DNA of 51,741 nucleotides from Chitinophagales bacterium (GCA_025057275.1 JANWXQ010000056.1:1-51741), one strand, 5' to 3'. Shown: positions 35,957 to 51,721, numbered from the stretch's first letter. Translations and numbers: made by a program. Notes: a model not told the origin generated them from the sequence alone.

Positions 35957-38563
35957 TCAGCGGCTGAAGCGATCCTGCAATTCGGCCAGCTTGAGCAGGG
36001 CTTCCACGGGAGTGAGCGTATTCAGATCCAATTGCTTGAGCCATTGACGCAGCCGGGTCATTTCCGGATCCGGAGCAAAAAGGGACAGCTGATGGGACGA
36101 GGGCTGCTGGGCTGGCTGTACTTTCGGCGGGGTGCTGCGTCCGTTTTCCAGTTGTTTCATGATCTGACCGGCCCTCTCGATCACGGGCTGCGGTAGGCCG
36201 GCCATGGCAGCTACGTGAATGCCAAAGCTGTGTTCGGCGGCACCGGGTTGCACCTGATGCAGAAACAATACCTTATTGCCTGCTTCACGTACGGCCATAC
36301 GGTAGTTAACGATGCGCGGGAGGCGGTTGGCCAGTTCATTCAGTTCGTGGTAGTGGGTGGCAAACAATACCTTGGGCCGGCCTCTGGGATGATCGTGCAG
36401 GAATTCGGCAACGGCCCATGCAATGCTGATGCCGTCAAAGGTGGAGGTGCCTCGACCGATTTCATCCAGTACGATCAGGCTTCGGCCGGTAGCGTTGTGC
36501 AGAATGGAAGCCGTTTCCAGCATTTCCACCATAAAAGTGGATTCACCGGCAGCGAGGTTGTCGCTGGCCCCAACGCGGGTAAAAATTTTATCTACTAACC
36601 CGATAGTGGCCTGCCGGGCAGGGATAAAACTGCCTGTCTGGGCCATAAGCACCAGCAGGGCATTCTGACGGATGTAGGCCGATTTGCCGGCCATGTTGGG
36701 ACCGGTGAGAATGATGATCTGCTGTTGCTCTTCATCCAGGCGACAGTCGTTGGGAACAAAGGGTTTTTGGTTACCCAATTGTCGCTCAATAACCGGATGC
36801 CGACCCTGCTGGATGTCAATGGGTCCCTGTTCAACCAATGTAGGCCTGCACCAATTGTTTTTCACAGCCAGCCGTGCAAAGCATAGCAGGACGTCAAGTC
36901 GGGCCAATACCCGGGCATTTTGCTGAATCTGGGGAACGAATTCCCGGACGGCATCCAGCAGTTGCTGATACAGTTCCAGCTCCAGGGTAAGCATGCGGCT
37001 TTCGGCGGAAACGATTTTTTCCTCCAAATCCTTGAGCTCTGGGGTCACGTAGCGCTCGGCCTGCGTCAGGGTCTGCTTGCGAATCCAATCGGCAGGCACC
37101 TTGTGCCGGTGGGCATGGGTTACTTCCAGATAGTAACCAAATACCTGATTGTAACTGATTTTCAGCGAAGTAATTCCTGTACGCTCGGCTTCGCGCCGCT
37201 GCAGCTCCAACAGGTAATCCTTACTGTGCGTGGTCAGCCGCCGCAATTCGTCCAGCTCATTGCTGATGCCGGGGTTGAACAGGTGGCCTTTATGGGCCAG
37301 GGCCGGCGCATCGGGCCGTAATTCTTTTTGAATGCGGTCGGAAATCAGTCTGCAGGGTTGCAACTGTTCGGCCAGCCGTTGCACTTCTGGGGATGCGCTG
37401 AGCAGCAGTTCCTGAGCCTGTCCGGTGGCTTCCAGCGCCTTGCGGATGTGCAGCAAATCGCGGGGCCCGGCTTTTCCGGTAGCTGTTCGGGCAATGAGCC
37501 GTTCCAGATCGCCGCACTGGCGCAGGCAATCGGCCAGCCGGTCAGCCAGGGAAGGATCTTTGATAAAGGCTTCCACCTGATCCTGCCGTTCTTGCAGGGC
37601 CGAAAGGCTGGTCAGGGGAAGAGCCAGCCACTGACGCAGCAGTCGGCCGCCCATGGGTGTTATGGTATCGTCCATCACCTGAAGCAGCGACAACCCATCG
37701 GCTGCTGTGCTGGAGAGCAATTCCAGATTCCGAAGGGTAAAGCGATCCAGCCAGACGTGCTGGTGCGCGTCCAGACGGGCCAGGCCGTTCAGGTGACCCA
37801 GCTGGCTGTGTTCGGTGGCTTTCAGGTAGTGCAGGATGGCCCCGCTGGCCGTAACGGCTTCCGGCAGATCGTCGACGCCAAAGCCTTTGAGCGAATGAAC
37901 CTGGAAGTGCTGCAGGAGCTGGTCGCAGCCGTAGTCGTACTGAAATACCCAATCATCGAGGGCATAGGTATAAAAGCCATAGCCGAAAAACTGATGAAAC
38001 TTTTTTTTATTCGTTTTGCTGAAGATGATTTCGGCAGGCTGCAGCGATTGCAGCAGCTTGTCGGCATAGGCCGCATCGCCGGAAGTGCAGTAAAATTCGC
38101 CGGTGGAAATGTCGGCCAGGGCTATGCCGATGCAATCGCCATTCCAGTGCACGGCACAGAGGAAATTGTTGACCTTATGATCCAGGATGCGATCGTGGTC
38201 GGTGATGCCTGGGGTAATCAGTTCAGTGACATCGCGGCGCACTATGGTTTTGGCCAGCTTGGGGTCTTCCAGCTGATCGCAGATGGCTACCCGGTAGCCG
38301 GCCCGCACCAGCTTGGGCAGATAGGTATCCAGGGCATGATAGGGAAAGCCGGCCATGTCCTGCGCATAGGCAGCGCCGTTGGCGCGTTTGGTCAGCACGA
38401 TGCCGAGAATGCGGGAGGTGATGACGGCATCCTGGTCAAACGTCTCGTAAAAATCGCCTACGCGAAACAGCAGCAGGGCATCCGGATACCGGGCCTTGAT
38501 GGCCGCATACTGCTTCATAAGCGGCGTTTCCGTGGGGGAAGCGGCCTTCACGCTACGCGACAT
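35957..38563 (-). CDS. mutS: DNA mismatch repair protein MutS
   Basis: An 868-aa mismatch-recognition ATPase. The mismatch wedge motif GDFYETF (Phe-x-Glu) lies near residue 40, Walker A is GPNMAGKSAYIRQ near residue 620, and SDNLAAGESTFMVEM, VLDEIGRGTSTFDG and FATHYHEL follow. ATG 38563 gives the normal N-terminus MSRSVKAASPTETPLMKQYA; a longer frame upstream reads antisense into the divergent methyltransferase gene. It is transcribed from a promoter 15 nt upstream, divergent from the SpoU gene. Confidence 0.95.
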   Translation of the reverse strand: MSRSVKAASPTETPLMKQYAAIKARYPDALLLFRVGDFYETFDQDAVITSRILGIVLTKRANGAAYAQDMAGFPYHALDTYLPKLVRAGYRVAICDQLEDPKLAKTIVRRDVTELITPGITDHDRILDHKVNNFLCAVHWNGDCIGIALADISTGEFYCTSGDAAYADKLLQSLQPAEIIFSKTNKKKFHQFFGYGFYTYALDDWVFQYDYGCDQLLQHFQVHSLKGFGVDDLPEAVTASGAILHYLKATEHSQLGHLNGLARLDAHQHVWLDRFTLRNLELLSSTAADGLSLLQVMDDTITPMGGRLLRQWLALPLTSLSALQERQDQVEAFIKDPSLADRLADCLRQCGDLERLIARTATGKAGPRDLLHIRKALEATGQAQELLLSASPEVQRLAEQLQPCRLISDRIQKELRPDAPALAHKGHLFNPGISNELDELRRLTTHSKDYLLELQRREAERTGITSLKISYNQVFGYYLEVTHAHRHKVPADWIRKQTLTQAERYVTPELKDLEEKIVSAESRMLTLELELYQQLLDAVREFVPQIQQNARVLARLDVLLCFARLAVKNNWCRPTLVEQGPIDIQQGRHPVIERQLGNQKPFVPNDCRLDEEQQQIIILTGPNMAGKSAYIRQNALLVLMAQTGSFIPARQATIGLVDKIFTRVGASDNLAAGESTFMVEMLETASILHNATGRSLIVLDEIGRGTSTFDGISIAWAVAEFLHDHPRGRPKVLFATHYHELNELANRLPRIVNYRMAVREAGNKVLFLHQVQPGAAEHSFGIHVAAMAGLPQPVIERAGQIMKQLENGRSTPPKVQPAQQPSSHQLSLFAPDPEMTRLRQWLKQLDLNTLTPVEALLKLAELQDRFSR

Positions 38564-38578
38564 CTTGTGGCAGGCTTT

Positions 38579-38586
38579 CAAAAATA
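38579..38586 (-). promoter_or_regulatory. -7 element (TATTTTTG) for mutS, overlapping the divergent promoter
   Basis: An exact TAnnTTTG on the minus strand, 15 nt before the mutS ATG. On the plus strand the near-match TACTTTG (38588-38594) probably serves the methyltransferase gene, so the two start regions are only a few bases apart and may compete. Confidence 0.55.
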
Positions 38587-38606
38587 CTACTTTGGGCTGC
38601 GCAGGG

Positions 38607-39143
38607 TTGAGAAAGTTAACCACAGCGGAACTGAACCGGCCTGCAGTCGAGCAACTGCAGCAATTGCCGCGCATTCCCCTCGTCCTGCTGCTGGATAATA
38701 TCCGCAGCGCCTTCAACGTGGGCAGCATCTTTCGTACGGCAGATGCCTTTCGGGTAGAGCGGGTGGTTTTGTGCGGCATCACAGCTACGCCACCCCATCG
38801 TGAGGTATTGAAAACGGCTTTGGGCAGCACCGGATCGGTGCCGTGGCAGTACGAAGCCGATGCCGTAGGTGCTGCAGGCCGGCTAAAGCAGCAGGGCTAT
38901 CGCATGGTGGCCGTCGAGCAAACCGATAAAAGCCGCAATCTGCAGGAATTTCTACCGGATGGCAGACCGCTGGTGCTGATTTTCGGCAATGAAGTAAGGG
39001 GCATCGGGCCGGTACTGCAGCTGGCCGACGAAGCGGTGCAGATTCCGCAATGGGGCTTTAAGCATTCGCTGAATGTAGCCGTTGCCGCCGGCATCGTCCT
39101 GTGGGAAATCTGCAGAAAGTGCGGCTGGATAGGGGAAGGTTAA
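38607..39143 (+). CDS. SpoU/TrmH family RNA 2'-O-methyltransferase
   Basis: A 178-aa SPOUT methyltransferase. I use TTG 38607, giving MRKLTTAELNRPAVEQLQQL, the usual start in Bacteroidota TrmH-like proteins; upstream frames would overlap mutS sequence. Motif 1 is LLDNIRSAFNVGSIFRTADA, motif 2 LIFGNEVRGIGPVL and motif 3 IPQWGFKHSLNVAVAAGIVL (SAM-binding knot). It methylates a ribose 2'-OH in tRNA or rRNA; the exact target cannot be predicted. Its stop overlaps the ferritin stop by 4 nt. Confidence 0.85.
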   Translation: MRKLTTAELNRPAVEQLQQLPRIPLVLLLDNIRSAFNVGSIFRTADAFRVERVVLCGITATPPHREVLKTALGSTGSVPWQYEADAVGAAGRLKQQGYRMVAVEQTDKSRNLQEFLPDGRPLVLIFGNEVRGIGPVLQLADEAVQIPQWGFKHSLNVAVAAGIVLWEICRKCGWIGEG

Positions 39144-46508: not shown

Positions 46509-47663
46509 TCATTGTTTGGCCACACGCCCTGTCCATTGTCCGCCGTCGCCGCGCACCACCAGCAGATAGCAGCCTGCAGGCAGGGCAGAAAGGTCCAAAA
46601 ACAGCGGTTCCTCTTGCCTTGGTGCCGGCTGCTTTAGCACGATCTGTCCTTGGACATTGACCAGCATCAACTTGTTGAGCCGGTACGGAGCGTGCAACCA
46701 AAGGGGACCATGTGTCAAGGTGGGGAAGACGGCCAACCGATGGTTCGTGAGCTCAGCCTGAATGCCTTGCAGGGGATTCAGCTTCCAGCCCAGATCAGCC
46801 AGCATGGCCCGGGTTACAGGACCAATGTTGTGCACTTTTTTTCCCTTGCTTACAAACGGCGTCATCAGTTCATCGGGGTGGCCGGCGGGATAGGTGCTTT
46901 CATTCAAATGAGTTATGCTACTCCCCAAGGAAAACGTATTGGGGGCATAAAGTCTAGGGGCGCTGTTTCCGTTGGCTGCCGTGGCCTGGGGACCGGCGAA
47001 GTATAGTTCATTGCTGGTAAGCTGTTGACCTAAGAAAACAGAAGGATTGGTTAATTCAATGAGATGAATGCCATTCTGGTCAACAAGGAAACGGTCGTAA
47101 ACGGAAGGCAGGCTATCCAGATCGGGCCAAGGGAAACTGGTGGTCAGCGGCGCGAAATCATCAGGGCTCAGCAGACCCAGCGAGCCCTCCCCATTGCTTA
47201 CCTTGGCTAGTGACACAAAGCCCAGTCCATGCCCGATTTCGTGCATGGCCACACTAACAAAGTCATACTGGTGGGAAGGCACCGTGCCAGCCGTATCCCA
47301 AAACCAGCTTTGGGTGCTGTTGAAATAAATGTCCATATCATATTCGCCAGCATTGAGTTCTTCGCCGCTGAGGGCATTGGCCAGGGCTGTCGGGTACCAG
47401 GTGCCGGAAAACGGTGCGGCGGCAAATTCTTTTCTGCCGTTAGGAAAACAAATACCCAAAGGACCAGAGGGTAACGGCACCAGCAGGGCATTGACTTTAA
47501 TGGGAACAGCGGACTGCAGTATGGCGGCCCAACGCTGTGCAGCCAAATCAAAAGCGGCCTGCTGCGTTGCTGTAAAGCCGGTGTAGGTAATCTGAAAGGA
47601 AGCCTGAGCGGAAAGCTGACGGGCAAGCAGCGTTGCAAAAAGGCATATGCAAAAGTGTTTCAT
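46509..47663 (-). CDS. Secreted zinc metalloprotease-like protein with T9SS sorting domain
   Basis: A 384-aa protein from ATG 47663 (MKHFCICLFATLLARQLSAQ, signal peptide). A catalytic-type domain follows with the zinc motif AMHEIGHGLGFVSLAK (HExxH; the third metzincin His position is Ser, so it is not a standard metzincin) near residues 170-185. The C-terminus (LTHGPLWLHAPYRLNKLMLV, then LSALPAGCYLLVVRGDGGQW) is a type A T9SS sorting domain. I rank it as a probable peptidase of uncertain family. A near-match promoter (TATTTTG) is about 20 nt upstream. Confidence 0.8.
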   Translation of the reverse strand: MKHFCICLFATLLARQLSAQASFQITYTGFTATQQAAFDLAAQRWAAILQSAVPIKVNALLVPLPSGPLGICFPNGRKEFAAAPFSGTWYPTALANALSGEELNAGEYDMDIYFNSTQSWFWDTAGTVPSHQYDFVSVAMHEIGHGLGFVSLAKVSNGEGSLGLLSPDDFAPLTTSFPWPDLDSLPSVYDRFLVDQNGIHLIELTNPSVFLGQQLTSNELYFAGPQATAANGNSAPRLYAPNTFSLGSSITHLNESTYPAGHPDELMTPFVSKGKKVHNIGPVTRAMLADLGWKLNPLQGIQAELTNHRLAVFPTLTHGPLWLHAPYRLNKLMLVNVQGQIVLKQPAPRQEEPLFLDLSALPAGCYLLVVRGDGGQWTGRVAKQ

Positions 47664-48277
47664 GGCTTTTCGCTGAGGCCAAAATAGGGGGATTGTAAAT
47701 AGCTTGATGGAAACATTGTCAATTTTCAAGTAGTTCGAAATCCATCGCTCCGAGAGATGCAGATAATGCATAAAGAGCCTGAAGGCGGCCTTCTCTCATC
47801 TACTGAGGTTACTAACTGCTTGAAGTCGTAGAGTTAAATGTCCCCTTCAGGGGATTTGGGAAAGCAGCGATGGCCGCTTCTTCGAAACCTCAGAAATTAA
47901 CCCGGATCCTTCAATCCTATCAAAAGGGAACCTTTCTCAGAAGAAATGTACCCTTTTAACCGCAGGATGAGCGGGTCCTTAAATGATACCCAAAATAAGG
48001 TATTGCATACCTTAAAATAATGTTATATATTTCTTATGTAAAAGTTAATTCCTTCAGCAGCACGAATGCTTTTGGAAAAAACCTAACCCGGTTGCCATGT
48101 GGACAAGTCTTTTTCCGGGTGACTATAATAATGTGCTCGTTTTGCGCAGGCAAAAAAGCTATGTTTTAAAGCTTCGTGGCCCGCCTGACTGACAACCTGA
48201 CTGTCCTGTTTCGCACCATCAGGACTTGCAATGAAAAGAATGGTGCATTTCCTAAATCCCCCTCAAACTTTTTAAAA
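47664..48277. other. AT-rich intergenic region with two perfect hairpins
   Basis: About 610 bp with no gene I can support. It contains TCCCC-TTCA-GGGGA (47841-47854) and TAAGGTAT-TGC-ATACCTTA (47996-48014), an 8-bp perfect palindrome whose flanks are A/T-rich. No exact TAnnTTTG stands at a useful distance from the large gene; near-matches TATATTTC (about 48026) and TATGTTTT (about 48160) are candidates. This is a boundary between divergently oriented T9SS genes. Confidence 0.6.
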
Positions 48278-51200
48278 ATGCAAACACCTCATTACTTCTC
48301 ATACGTCAGCCGCATGGGTGCCTGCATGCTGCTGACTATTATGGCTGCTTTCCTGCCGGTACATGGCCAAACTCCCTGGTACATTACGGGAAACAGCGGC
48401 ACGGATACTTCCCATTTTTTAGGCACAATCGATAGCGTCCCTTTAATCATTCGCACGCATCATGTGGAGCGAATGCGTCTCCTGGAAAACGGAAACTTGG
48501 GCATTGGCACGCAGCAACCGGAAGCCACCCTGGATGTGCGGGGAAATCTCATGGCCGGGGATAGCGCTTCATACTGCATGCTGGATAGTTCAGGCATTCG
48601 GTTGTTTGGCCATGCTGCATTACGCATTGCAGGTAACCGCTATGTTTTTCGGCTGGATAATGGGAGCCTGGGTGGTATGTTTATGAACCTGGACAGCCAG
48701 GCGTATGAGTTGCTTGACACCATGGGGGTTCGGGTATTTTCGGTTACCCTCTTAGGAAAAGGCTACCTGAAAGGGGGTCTGCAGTTAGGCAACAGCACCT
48801 CCGCGCAGGCGGGTACCATTCGCTGGACAGGCGATGACTTTGAAGGGCGTACCGATAGCGGCTGGGTTTCCCTTCTTGATGACAGTATGAAGGCCAATGT
48901 TTATTTATCCAACCTGGACTCCACTGCAATTAACCGGGAATTGCTGCCCGACAGTACAGAAAAACGAAATCTGGGAAGCGAATCGCGCCGCTGGAAACGC
49001 ATTCACCTGCACGATCTCAAATTTGCCGACGGCTCCATTCAATCATCTGCAGCCAAAGTGTATGCAGCTGGATCGGGTATCGCTATTTCCAACGACACGA
49101 TCAGTAATACCGGCGATGGGAACGCTTTAGACGATGCCAACCGTGCGTTGTCTAATCTGGATAACACAGCAATCAATAAGGATTTGTTGCCGGACACTAC
49201 GGCCAAGCGAAACTTGGGCAGCGACAGCTACCGTTGGAAAAGGATTCACCTCTACGATCTCAAGTTTGCTGATGGGTCTATTCAAAGTACAGCGCCGCTT
49301 AATTACAGTGCCGGAGCGGGTATCAGTATTTCCCCCGGCGGGATAATCAGCAATACCGGTGATCTGTATCCGTTTGATGCCAATCTCAGTTTGTCCAACC
49401 TGCTTCCAACCGCTATCAACGAGCATTTGCACCCGGCATTGAATAATGTGCTGAATCTTGGCAGTGCCCTTGTCGGATGGAAGGACCTTTATCTGGCCGG
49501 CAGCATTTACAATGCATTTACCCGAATTTTTTCAGTTGAGGGTACCGGTAATGTTTTTGTGGGTCGAGAAGCAGGAACCAGCAACACCACGGGTTCTTCC
49601 AACACAGCCGTTGGCTCCAACGCGCTCAAGAATAATACCACTGGAAGCAATAACACGGCAGTGGGCAAGGATGCTCTTAAAGCCAATACCACAGGGTCCG
49701 GTAATTCGGCCTTGGGTGAAAGCACGCTTGCTGCCAATACTACCGGTTCGAACAACGTCGCTATAGGAAAAGATGCGCTAAAAGCCAACACTACCGGTAC
49801 CGGTAATTCGGCCTTGGGTGAAAGTACGCTTGCTGCCAACACTACAGGAGGCAACAACACGGCAATGGGTAAGGATGCGCTTAAAGCCAATACCACGGGC
49901 TCAGGGAATTCCGCAGTGGGGGAGGCCGCTCTGTCCGCGAACACTACCGGTTCATTGAACACGGCCGTTGGAAAGCAGGCATTAGCAGCCAATCAAACGG
50001 GTCAGTTCAACGTCTCCGTTGGTTACGAATCCCTCAGTGCCAATACCACAGGCAATCAGAACACGGCCGTAGGCAGCCAATGCTTGTTCAGTAACCAGAC
50101 CGGCTCTGATAACACTGCTATGGGGTACAAAGCATTAAGGTCCAATACGACAGGCAAGGACAATACGGCGGTTGGAATGGAGGCTTTGCAGGCAAGCAAT
50201 ACCGGCGAGCGTAATGTAGCAGTGGGCAAACATGCCTTGTTCACTAATACTAGTGGTGACAATAACACGGCACTCGGCGTCGATGCCTTGCTTTTTAGCG
50301 AAACCGGGAACAACAACACGGCAGTCGGTTATGCTTCTTTACTTAGTAATACCACCGGCAACGACAACACAGCGGTTGGAAGAGATGCCCTTGTCAGCAA
50401 CACTGTAGGGTCAGGAAATGTAGCTATTGGGAAAGATGCGCTTTTTGGTAATACCACCGGAATTCACAACGCTGCTGTTGGCCAGGGGGCCTTGTTCTCT
50501 AATACGACAGGTAAGTACAATGCGGCTTTAGGCTTTAATGCCTTGTTTTCCAACACAACCGGCTCGGACAATGTAGCCTCCGGCAGGAATGCACTACAAT
50601 CCAATACCACCGGATCCTTCAACATTGCCCTAGGAAATGCTGCACTGAACTCCAACACCGTAGGCGAATACAATTCGGCAAGCGGTCGAGGCGCTCTCAG
50701 GGCAAACACTACCGGGTCCTTTAATACTGGTTTTGGCCGCAGCAGCGGCAGCTTTAACGACGCAAACAACAACTGCAGCTTCTTTGGCCATGATGCCGAT
50801 CAGTCGGTAGGAACTGATTTTAATAACAGTACCGCTTTGGGCAATAACAGCCGCATTACCGCCAGCAACCAGGTGCGCGTGGGGAATGGTGCAGTAACCA
50901 GCATCGGAGGCTTTGTTAACTGGACCAACGTCAGCGATGCCCGATTCAAAAAAGATGTGCAGCAAAACGTGCCCGGGCTGGAATTCATCAGCAAACTGAA
51001 CCCTGTCACCTACCGCCTGGATGTGCATGGCATCAGCCGATTCCTTGGAGAAGACATTACCGGAGAAGAGCAAACAGAAGGATACGAGGAGCCATCAGCT
51101 GAATACAAAGCCAGGGTGGAACAGGGTCGTAAAGAGAAAGAGGGCATCCTCTACACCGGCTTCATCGCTCAGGAAGTAGAGAAAGCGGCTCAGGAACTGG

Positions 51201-51721
51201 GTTTTGACTTTTCCGGCGTGGACAAGCCGCAGAACGACCACTCACTCTACGGGCTGCGGTACTCAGAGTTTGTGGTGCCGCTGGTCAAAGCTGTGCAAGA
51301 GCTGAACATGAAAAATGAGCAGTTGGAAAAAAAGAACGGGATGCTGCAAAATGAAAATGCCGAACTGAAAGCACGTGTTGAAAAAATTGAATCGCTGCTT
51401 TCGATTTCCGGTGAGGGCGGTGCAGAAAAACAGCCTGCTCACGAAACGGTAACTCTCAGCGGCGGCGCCCGCCTGGAGCAAAATGTACCTAATCCCTTTG
51501 ACGGCAGCACCGTAATCGGCTATGTCGTGCCCGATGAGTCGGCCCGCGTGCAACTGCAGTTTGTCAGCGCCACCGGCGAAGTGCTGCGCACCGTTGATGT
51601 GGCTGCCGGCAAAGGCACCGTCACCGTTAAGGCTCAGGATCTGCCCTCAGGCGCTTATCGCTACAGTCTGCTGGTCAATGGTTCCGTGGTGGATACCAAA
51701 ACCATGTTGCTGCAGAAATAG
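48278..51721 (+). CDS. Large T9SS-exported fibre protein with YadA-head-like repeats and S74 chaperone
   Basis: A 1147-aa protein from ATG 48278 (signal peptide ending PVHGQ). After GIGTQQPEATLDVRG come three imperfect copies of a block with NLDSTAIN, KRNLGS and RWKRIHLHDLKFADGSIQS. From residue 436 there are about 22 repeats of 17 residues (51 bp, 49583-50704) of the form NTTGSNNTAVGKDALKA, the G-x-x-N-x-A-x-G pattern of YadA/trimeric-autotransporter head beta-rolls. The next domain has the peptidase S74 (endosialidase) chaperone start NVSDARFKKDV, near residue 884; a coiled coil (EQLEKKNGMLQNENAELKAR) follows. The C-terminus from about 1064 (NVPNPFDGSTVIGYVV, LPSGAYRYSLLV) is a type A T9SS domain. 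It is probably a trimeric surface fibre or adhesin. Codon use in the repeats is degenerate, so they are old rather than recently expanded. Confidence 0.85.
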   Translation: MQTPHYFSYVSRMGACMLLTIMAAFLPVHGQTPWYITGNSGTDTSHFLGTIDSVPLIIRTHHVERMRLLENGNLGIGTQQPEATLDVRGNLMAGDSASYCMLDSSGIRLFGHAALRIAGNRYVFRLDNGSLGGMFMNLDSQAYELLDTMGVRVFSVTLLGKGYLKGGLQLGNSTSAQAGTIRWTGDDFEGRTDSGWVSLLDDSMKANVYLSNLDSTAINRELLPDSTEKRNLGSESRRWKRIHLHDLKFADGSIQSSAAKVYAAGSGIAISNDTISNTGDGNALDDANRALSNLDNTAINKDLLPDTTAKRNLGSDSYRWKRIHLYDLKFADGSIQSTAPLNYSAGAGISISPGGIISNTGDLYPFDANLSLSNLLPTAINEHLHPALNNVLNLGSALVGWKDLYLAGSIYNAFTRIFSVEGTGNVFVGREAGTSNTTGSSNTAVGSNALKNNTTGSNNTAVGKDALKANTTGSGNSALGESTLAANTTGSNNVAIGKDALKANTTGTGNSALGESTLAANTTGGNNTAMGKDALKANTTGSGNSAVGEAALSANTTGSLNTAVGKQALAANQTGQFNVSVGYESLSANTTGNQNTAVGSQCLFSNQTGSDNTAMGYKALRSNTTGKDNTAVGMEALQASNTGERNVAVGKHALFTNTSGDNNTALGVDALLFSETGNNNTAVGYASLLSNTTGNDNTAVGRDALVSNTVGSGNVAIGKDALFGNTTGIHNAAVGQGALFSNTTGKYNAALGFNALFSNTTGSDNVASGRNALQSNTTGSFNIALGNAALNSNTVGEYNSASGRGALRANTTGSFNTGFGRSSGSFNDANNNCSFFGHDADQSVGTDFNNSTALGNNSRITASNQVRVGNGAVTSIGGFVNWTNVSDARFKKDVQQNVPGLEFISKLNPVTYRLDVHGISRFLGEDITGEEQTEGYEEPSAEYKARVEQGRKEKEGILYTGFIAQEVEKAAQELGFDFSGVDKPQNDHSLYGLRYSEFVVPLVKAVQELNMKNEQLEKKNGMLQNENAELKARVEKIESLLSISGEGGAEKQPAHETVTLSGGARLEQNVPNPFDGSTVIGYVVPDESARVQLQFVSATGEVLRTVDVAAGKGTVTVKAQDLPSGAYRYSLLVNGSVVDTKTMLLQK
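49583..50755 (+). repeat. 51-bp tandem coding repeat (22-23 copies)
   Basis: In-frame 17-residue units within the large T9SS protein. Copies 2/4/6 and 3/5 are the closest to each other (DALKA and STLAA types alternate), suggesting duplication of a two-unit block; later copies have diverged. The last unit (50705-50755) is partial. Confidence 0.9.

Follow-up and report, generated by a model that had tools for sequence, protein, structure and literature searches.

Layout of the gene and its product

The window analysed here is a stretch of 51,741 nucleotides from a Chitinophagales bacterium (GCA_025057275.1, JANWXQ010000056.1:1-51741), in which positions are counted from the first letter. At 48278-51721 on the + strand an open reading frame (ORF), starting with an ATG at 48278 and closed by a stop codon that ends at 51721, encodes a protein of 1147 amino acids that runs from a signal peptide through a fibre region, an array of 17-residue repeats, a neck, an S74 chaperone/protease domain, a coiled coil and a linker to a C-terminal immunoglobulin (Ig)-like domain, all within the one ORF. 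The initial annotation had read this protein as an S74 chaperone placed before a C-terminal domain like those of the type IX secretion system (T9SS), and the arrangement was borne out both by a Pfam match to S74 and by a family-level assignment of the C-terminal domain. Self-cleavage by the S74 domain would here cut the fibre from its own sorting signal. The parts of the protein are as follows.

48278..48367, + strand: signal peptide (residues 1-30, MQTPHYFSYVSRMGACMLLTIMAAFLPVHG), without a lipobox Cys; read from the translation
48368..49600, + strand: N-terminal fibre part (residues 31-441); from the translation
49601..50773, + strand: repeat array (residues 442-832), 23 tandem 17-residue units with the consensus NTAVGxxALxxNTTGxx
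50774..50932, + strand: neck (residues 833-885, NSTALGNNSRITASNQVRVGNGAVTSIGGFVNWTNV within), kept across relatives, with the predicted scissile bond V885-S886 at its end
50933..51226, + strand: S74 (ICA) chaperone/protease (residues 886-983); Pfam match, dyad S886/K891
51227..51409, + strand: last part of S74, then the long C-terminal helix/coiled coil (residues 984-1044); AlphaFold2
51410..51463, + strand: flexible linker (residues 1045-1062); from the AlphaFold2 predicted local distance difference test (pLDDT)
51464..51718, + strand: putative T9SS type A sorting domain (residues 1063-1147, LEQNVPNPF...TMLLQK), with the stop codon extending to 51721

A GTG at 48176 is a possible longer start, but translation from the ATG at 48278 begins with a plain signal peptide. 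Residues 31-441 hold two near-copies of LSNLD(S/N)TAIN..LLPD(S/T)T.KRNLGS(E/D)S.RWKRIHL.DLKFADGSIQS, and a Pfam search of this region returned zero families at E <= 1. Towards the C-terminus, AlphaFold2 predicted a high-pLDDT helix of ~50 residues (model residues 125-174, that is 995-1044) and a linker in which pLDDT fell below 50 (model residues 180-191, that is 1050-1061).

The catalytic dyad in the window protein and its relatives

The Pfam family Peptidase_S74 (PF13884) matched residues 886-975 with 36.3 bits (gathering cut-off 22), and an SDARFK motif begins at residue 886 (nucleotide 50933), placing a Ser at the N-terminus of the S74 domain as had been claimed. The initial annotation had also named Ser and Asp as the autocleavage residues; catalytic residues are indeed present, but as a Ser-Lys dyad of the form S-x4-K (S886 and K891), starting at the first residue of the domain. 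The equivalent residues are S911/K916 in endoNF and S587/K592 in MYRF, both of which are cut by means of a Ser and a Lys five residues apart, and in MYRF an Ala at either position blocks cleavage (PMC8326128). S74 domains also have an essential Gly (G956 in endoNF and G626 in MYRF, in the numbering of PMC3742443) and a trimeric coiled coil at the C-terminus; the TGFIAQEVE of the window protein holds the family-invariant Gly (alignment column 44), a candidate equivalent of G956. Comparison with the sequences of solved structures, using the whole protein or a profile of the S74 and C-terminal domains, matched zero S74 entries. Cleavage disabled through a missing residue is ruled out by the presence of the dyad, and the suggestion that cleavage might be disabled is contradicted at the sequence level both here and across almost the whole family (87/88, below). 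It had been pointed out that without the catalytic residues there would be no cleavage and no puzzle; as they were found in the S74 domain, the conflict between cleavage and a sorting signal stands, and the window protein probably cuts itself at V885-S886.

For the survey of relatives, S74 genes, which 88 of the 296 Bacteroidota genomes sampled carry, were gathered by a Pfam search and also by a profile whose first position lies past the dyad and which extends over the sorting domain. Pfam-based gathering may miss very degenerate S74 domains, which the dyad-free profile lessens only partly. The S74 domains were aligned to a hidden Markov model built for this analysis and seeded with SD-containing sequences, near-duplicates being removed, and the counts are of domains, not of independent events. 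Eighty named relatives were excluded from the dyad counts because they had been fetched with SDAR-containing patterns. Both Ser and Lys were present in all aligned non-redundant S74 proteins with the sorting domain (CTD+; 87/87) and in all of those without it (CTD-; 161/161). The only fully conserved columns in either group were the Ser, the Lys and one Gly, against a median column of ~0.35.

The aligned count leaves out rows whose match begins past the dyad. Inspection of these revealed one clear loss; the rest were secondary matches or genes that are truncated or broken in frame. The dyad was thus kept in 87 of 88 distinct CTD+ proteins. That the invariance might be an artefact of the search was ruled out in two ways: with both dyad letters masked to X, 301 of 303 domains were still detected, and the dyad-free profile, run over 198 genomes, found a single dyad-dead CTD+ protein. 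This relative (L318/L381; G474 C14, ~36355-38871) reads YAADNIKKDI, with both Ser and Asp replaced by Ala, and has ANE in place of AQE, and it keeps the repeats, the coiled coil and the sorting domain. It represents a natural control for what cleavage does. In two further relatives, L358 and L374, a fibre, coiled coil and sorting domain are present and S74 is not detectable; they parallel the non-S74 group of the Bdellovibrio MAT fibres. The position three residues after the dyad Ser (S74 column 7) is an Arg in 51/87 CTD+ against 126/161 CTD- domains (Fisher p 0.002, uncorrected for kinship), and this Arg may tune the speed of cleavage.

Mutants in which the Ser is replaced by Ala fold, trimerise and crystallise uncleaved both in T5 pb1 (PMC4690869) and in MYRF (PMC8326128). 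Since the Ser is unnecessary for folding in these proteins, its retention points to cleavage, and its invariance in CTD+ proteins indicates that cutting is useful although the fibre is severed from the sorting domain. Thus, judged from sequence conservation, self-cleavage is probably under selection even where it cuts the fibre from the sorting domain.

The putative sorting domain, the repeats and their spread

At E <= 1 the T9SS model TIGR04183 matched 44 of 45 homologous S74-protein tails (best 9e-11), and the next-best families for these tails were T9SS-dependent proteins. In the AlphaFold2 model the very end of the chain (model residues 200-275) folds as an Ig-like sandwich of seven strands, with pLDDT mostly >90, and seven strands are also described for type A sorting domains (PMC10202324). 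Together, the tail matches and the Ig-like model mean that the assignment holds at the family level, where the C-terminal domain convincingly resembles, and is best described as, a putative T9SS type A sorting domain. It aligned with the C-terminal domain of PorU (6za2) with Z 9.0, a root mean square deviation of 3.0 and 19% identity over 86 aligned residues; most of its structural matches were unrelated Ig folds, and Foldseek and VIA searches with the model of the S74 and C-terminal domains returned Ig-like matches to the sorting domain only. The genome encodes a full-length T9SS core (SprA, 2483 bits; PorU, 1352 bits; PorV, 389 bits) and TIGR04183 matches it 149 times at E <= 0.1, mostly with scores over the cut-off; the C-terminal domain of the window protein is absent from these 149. 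With T9SS type A cargo the protein shares a signal peptide and a C-terminal Ig-like domain of ~80 residues opening with a PNP motif, but it differs in having a self-cutting chaperone between cargo and sorting domain, which could allow the cargo to shed the latter without PorU. The linker pair E1046-G1047 weakly fits the reported rule for PorU sites, T/E/D/N|G/A/S (PMC10202324).

The repeats had been described as 22 YadA-head-like units. A tandem array is indeed present at residues 442-832, with every step exactly 17 residues, but it has 23 units and its likeness to YadA is remote, coming after that to phage tail spikes. The match to the phage tail spike family phrog_4636 (E 2.8e-96) covers both the repeat and the S74 parts, whereas the Pfam family YadA_head did not match the window protein at E <= 1 and matched 2 of 37 relatives weakly (best 0.031); in profile searches EibD (E 2.8e-5, with biased composition) and CbpF (0.012) were remote matches. 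YadA-type heads such as these share short NxAxG-type repeats with the window protein, which differs from YadA-type trimeric autotransporters in its period of 17 residues and in ending with a coiled coil and an Ig-like domain, not with a YadA anchor barrel. An AlphaFold2 model of residues 626-895 as a single chain had one short strand per 17 residues (pLDDT 69, with 80-88 in the middle part). Foldseek returned zero matches below 0.001 for this model, and VIA returned assorted beta-helices (Z up to 15, 5-14% identity), including the P22 and Sf6 tail spikes; such an assortment at low identity supports a solenoid and nothing more specific. The repeats are predicted, with moderate confidence, to form a beta-solenoid. 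The 17-residue units are present in S74 fibres both with and without the sorting domain.

Phage S74 spikes and fibres (endoNF of K1F, T5 pb1, SPO1 gp2.52 and phrog_4636) share the S74 domain, the coiled coil and the dyad with the window protein, SPO1 gp2.52 aligning with its neck and S74 domain at 28.5%. The dyad was present in 80/80 viral S74 relatives, which end 95-134 residues past the start of the S74 match; they differ in lacking a sorting domain (0/80) and a signal-peptide-like start (0/49).

The order S74, coiled coil, sorting domain was found in 87 non-redundant proteins, which span 19 family codes and 39 genus codes, and 15 genera have both CTD+ and CTD- S74 proteins. Recurrence of the domain order, with S74 genes in 88 of the genomes sampled, means that the architecture did not arise by chance; it is widespread in Bacteroidota and no singular oddity. 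On a tree of the S74 domains the sorting-domain label changed 40 times, compared with 69 for shuffled labels, and so the domain appears clustered on the tree yet often gained or lost, with the qualification that ~100 columns give a weak tree. By a hydrophobicity heuristic, 14/15 CTD+ and 62/68 CTD- relatives have a signal-peptide-like N-terminus. Among the named relatives (L147-L226), CTD+ N-termini often read W..TGN.GT..FLGT or GIGT..P, and CTD- N-termini QVAINTDGS..DNSAMLDV or QYQAVVRD; the class of N-terminus may tell the route of export or anchoring.

The source genome holds further S74 genes: L003 has a sorting domain like the window gene, L002 has none, and L004 is cut by a contig end. 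The sorting domains of the window protein and L003 are 93% identical. L002 has the same S74 domain and repeats as the window gene, and no remnant of a sorting domain was found downstream of it in three frames. The window contig ends 20 bases past the gene, and the paralogues L003 (C44) and L002/L004 (C2) lie on contigs of 3.7 and 5.0 kb; the assembly probably broke at the window gene because of a recent duplication or gene conversion.

The surroundings of the gene are housekeeping genes (rpoC, mutS and groES/groEL). Proteins of this S74-fibre kind are often annotated as 'tail fiber domain-containing'. A prophage origin was unsupported, given the housekeeping genes in the window and the signal peptides borne by the relatives. 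The adjoining gene (46509-47771, - strand) has a weak matrixin-like (M10) metalloprotease match, just below the Pfam cut-off, and a T9SS sorting domain of its own (C32:46512-46673, 23.5 bits).

Proposed export and self-cleavage

The architecture, the intact dyad, its retention in CTD+ relatives and the genomic T9SS are direct observations. The reading of them to which we lean, and which we put a little short of even, is that the gene encodes a secreted, chromosomal, trimeric fibre built of modules of the phage tail spike type, whose export precedes trimerisation and self-cleavage. Trimerisation, cleavage, its order relative to export, the role of PorU and the final location and anchor of the fibre are what we infer. 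Sec would bring the chain to the periplasm, and the C-terminal domain would pass it to SprA/PorV before three chains fully assemble. Outside the cell, the coiled coil and the S74 domain would gather three chains and fold the fibre, and correct trimerisation would activate S886/K891 to cut V885-S886, parting the fibre (~88 kDa per chain) from the chaperone and sorting domain (~29 kDa); the chaperone piece would be ~19 kDa if PorU also takes off the sorting domain. This piece might stay tethered to surface lipopolysaccharide, the fibre being freed as the MYRF trimer is, or might be discarded along with the sorting domain.

The Bdellovibrio host of the MAT fibres is not known to have a T9SS. As described in PMC10769870, the S74 group of these fibres is chromosomal, with a signal peptide, a trimeric form, phage-like modules and a C-terminal S74 domain with SDxxxK, all of which, if it trimerises as proposed, the window protein shares; a non-S74 group occurs in both. 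The MAT fibres differ in that they end in S74 and are described without a T9SS sorting domain. They have a conserved beta-rich domain of ~130 residues after the signal peptide, and their N-terminal domain is thought to be located at the predator surface (PMC10769870). One secreted bacterial S74 fibre, Bd3182, cleaves itself, and its S782A form loses the normal location (PMC10769870). MYRF is the closest working precedent, as its tethered S74 trimer frees an N-terminal trimer (PMC3742443). Common to MYRF/MrfA and the window protein are S74 (ICA) and an extra C-terminal module, which fixes the S74 of MYRF to the membrane, and the MYRF/MrfA cut is made by a Ser-Lys pair, depends on trimerisation and releases the N-terminal trimer; however, MYRF/MrfA are eukaryotic, with a transmembrane-helix anchor in the endoplasmic reticulum and a DNA-binding N-terminal part instead of a fibre (PMC3742443, PMC8326128).

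Several points weigh against export first. In the accepted T9SS model cargo folds in the periplasm before export (PMC10202324), and if the trimer formed there, cleavage would come first and deprive the fibre of its export signal. Many S74 fibres with a signal peptide have no sorting domain, nor does the paralogue L002, of which the S74 domain and the repeats were read, so that another export route may exist. In addition, the window sorting domain scores 14.8 bits against PF18962 (cut-off 27) and, against TIGR04183, 14.2 bits as part of the whole protein and 19.1 bits as the tail alone (cut-off 23); being below both curated cut-offs, it was filed as resembling T9SS type A. Had cutting before export cost the fibre its export signal, the dyad should have been selected away, which leaves either export first or joint travel, in which the fibre trimerises and cuts in the periplasm and the chaperone and sorting domain, held non-covalently, are exported jointly with it through the wide SprA channel, the pieces parting outside. 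The reported folding of cargo before export favours such joint travel, as do the interface of ~3000 square angstroms that the cleaved T5 pb1 chaperone keeps with its fibre (PMC4690869) and the tip trimer of Bd3182, just ~40 angstroms across (PMC10769870). The T5 interface is, however, weak (-12 kcal/mol) and mostly hydrophilic, with release expected (PMC4690869), and each of the three sorting domains in a complex would require PorV, which together favour export first. Sequence alone does not separate the two orders, and we regard joint travel as rather unlikely.

If instead the S74 domain only folded and trimerised the fibre, with cleavage absent or very slow, PorU could anchor the intact fibre by its C-terminus. 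The dyad-dead L318/L381, together with L358 and L374, suggests that cleavage is dispensable in some relatives, and the lower frequency of the Arg at +3 in CTD+ domains points the same way. This seems improbable given the invariance of Ser and Lys in the 87 aligned CTD+ proteins; the sole Ser-less protein also shows decay in another S74 motif (AQE to ANE), and mutation of the Arg in MYRF blocks cleavage just in part (PMC8326128). It also seems very improbable that the C-terminal domain is an Ig-like cap or adhesive domain, shed by the cut, on a fibre that exits as CTD-less S74 fibres do. The sub-threshold scores of the window tail, the generic nature of structural matches to very common Ig-like folds and the existence of signal-peptide fibres without the domain are all consistent with a cap. 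Against it stand the TIGR04183 matches of the homologous tails and the T9SS-dependent families next to them, the position of the domain at the extreme C-terminus past a flexible linker, its absence from 80 viral relatives and the T9SS core in the genome.

Returning to export before cleavage, a more specific form of it, speculative and to be held with some doubt, is that the cargo strips off the signal by which it was exported: S74 would act as a folding sensor that cuts only after correct assembly outside, self-cleavage would compete with or replace PorU and leave a surface-tethered chaperone, and on S74 fibres the sorting domain would be an accessory acquired or lost many times. Literature searches pairing S74 with T9SS returned no paper joining both subjects. 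If cleavage occurs, the protein would be a T9SS cargo that frees itself autocatalytically from the sorting domain once its trimer is correctly assembled, a quality check that, in the literature found, is undescribed for the T9SS. Two questions, whether T9SS cargo can form multimers and when it folds, would also become directly testable: the cut is made at trimerisation, so that the compartment in which fragments first appear would report folding relative to export. Fibres like this one are common among Bacteroidota and probably act as adhesins.

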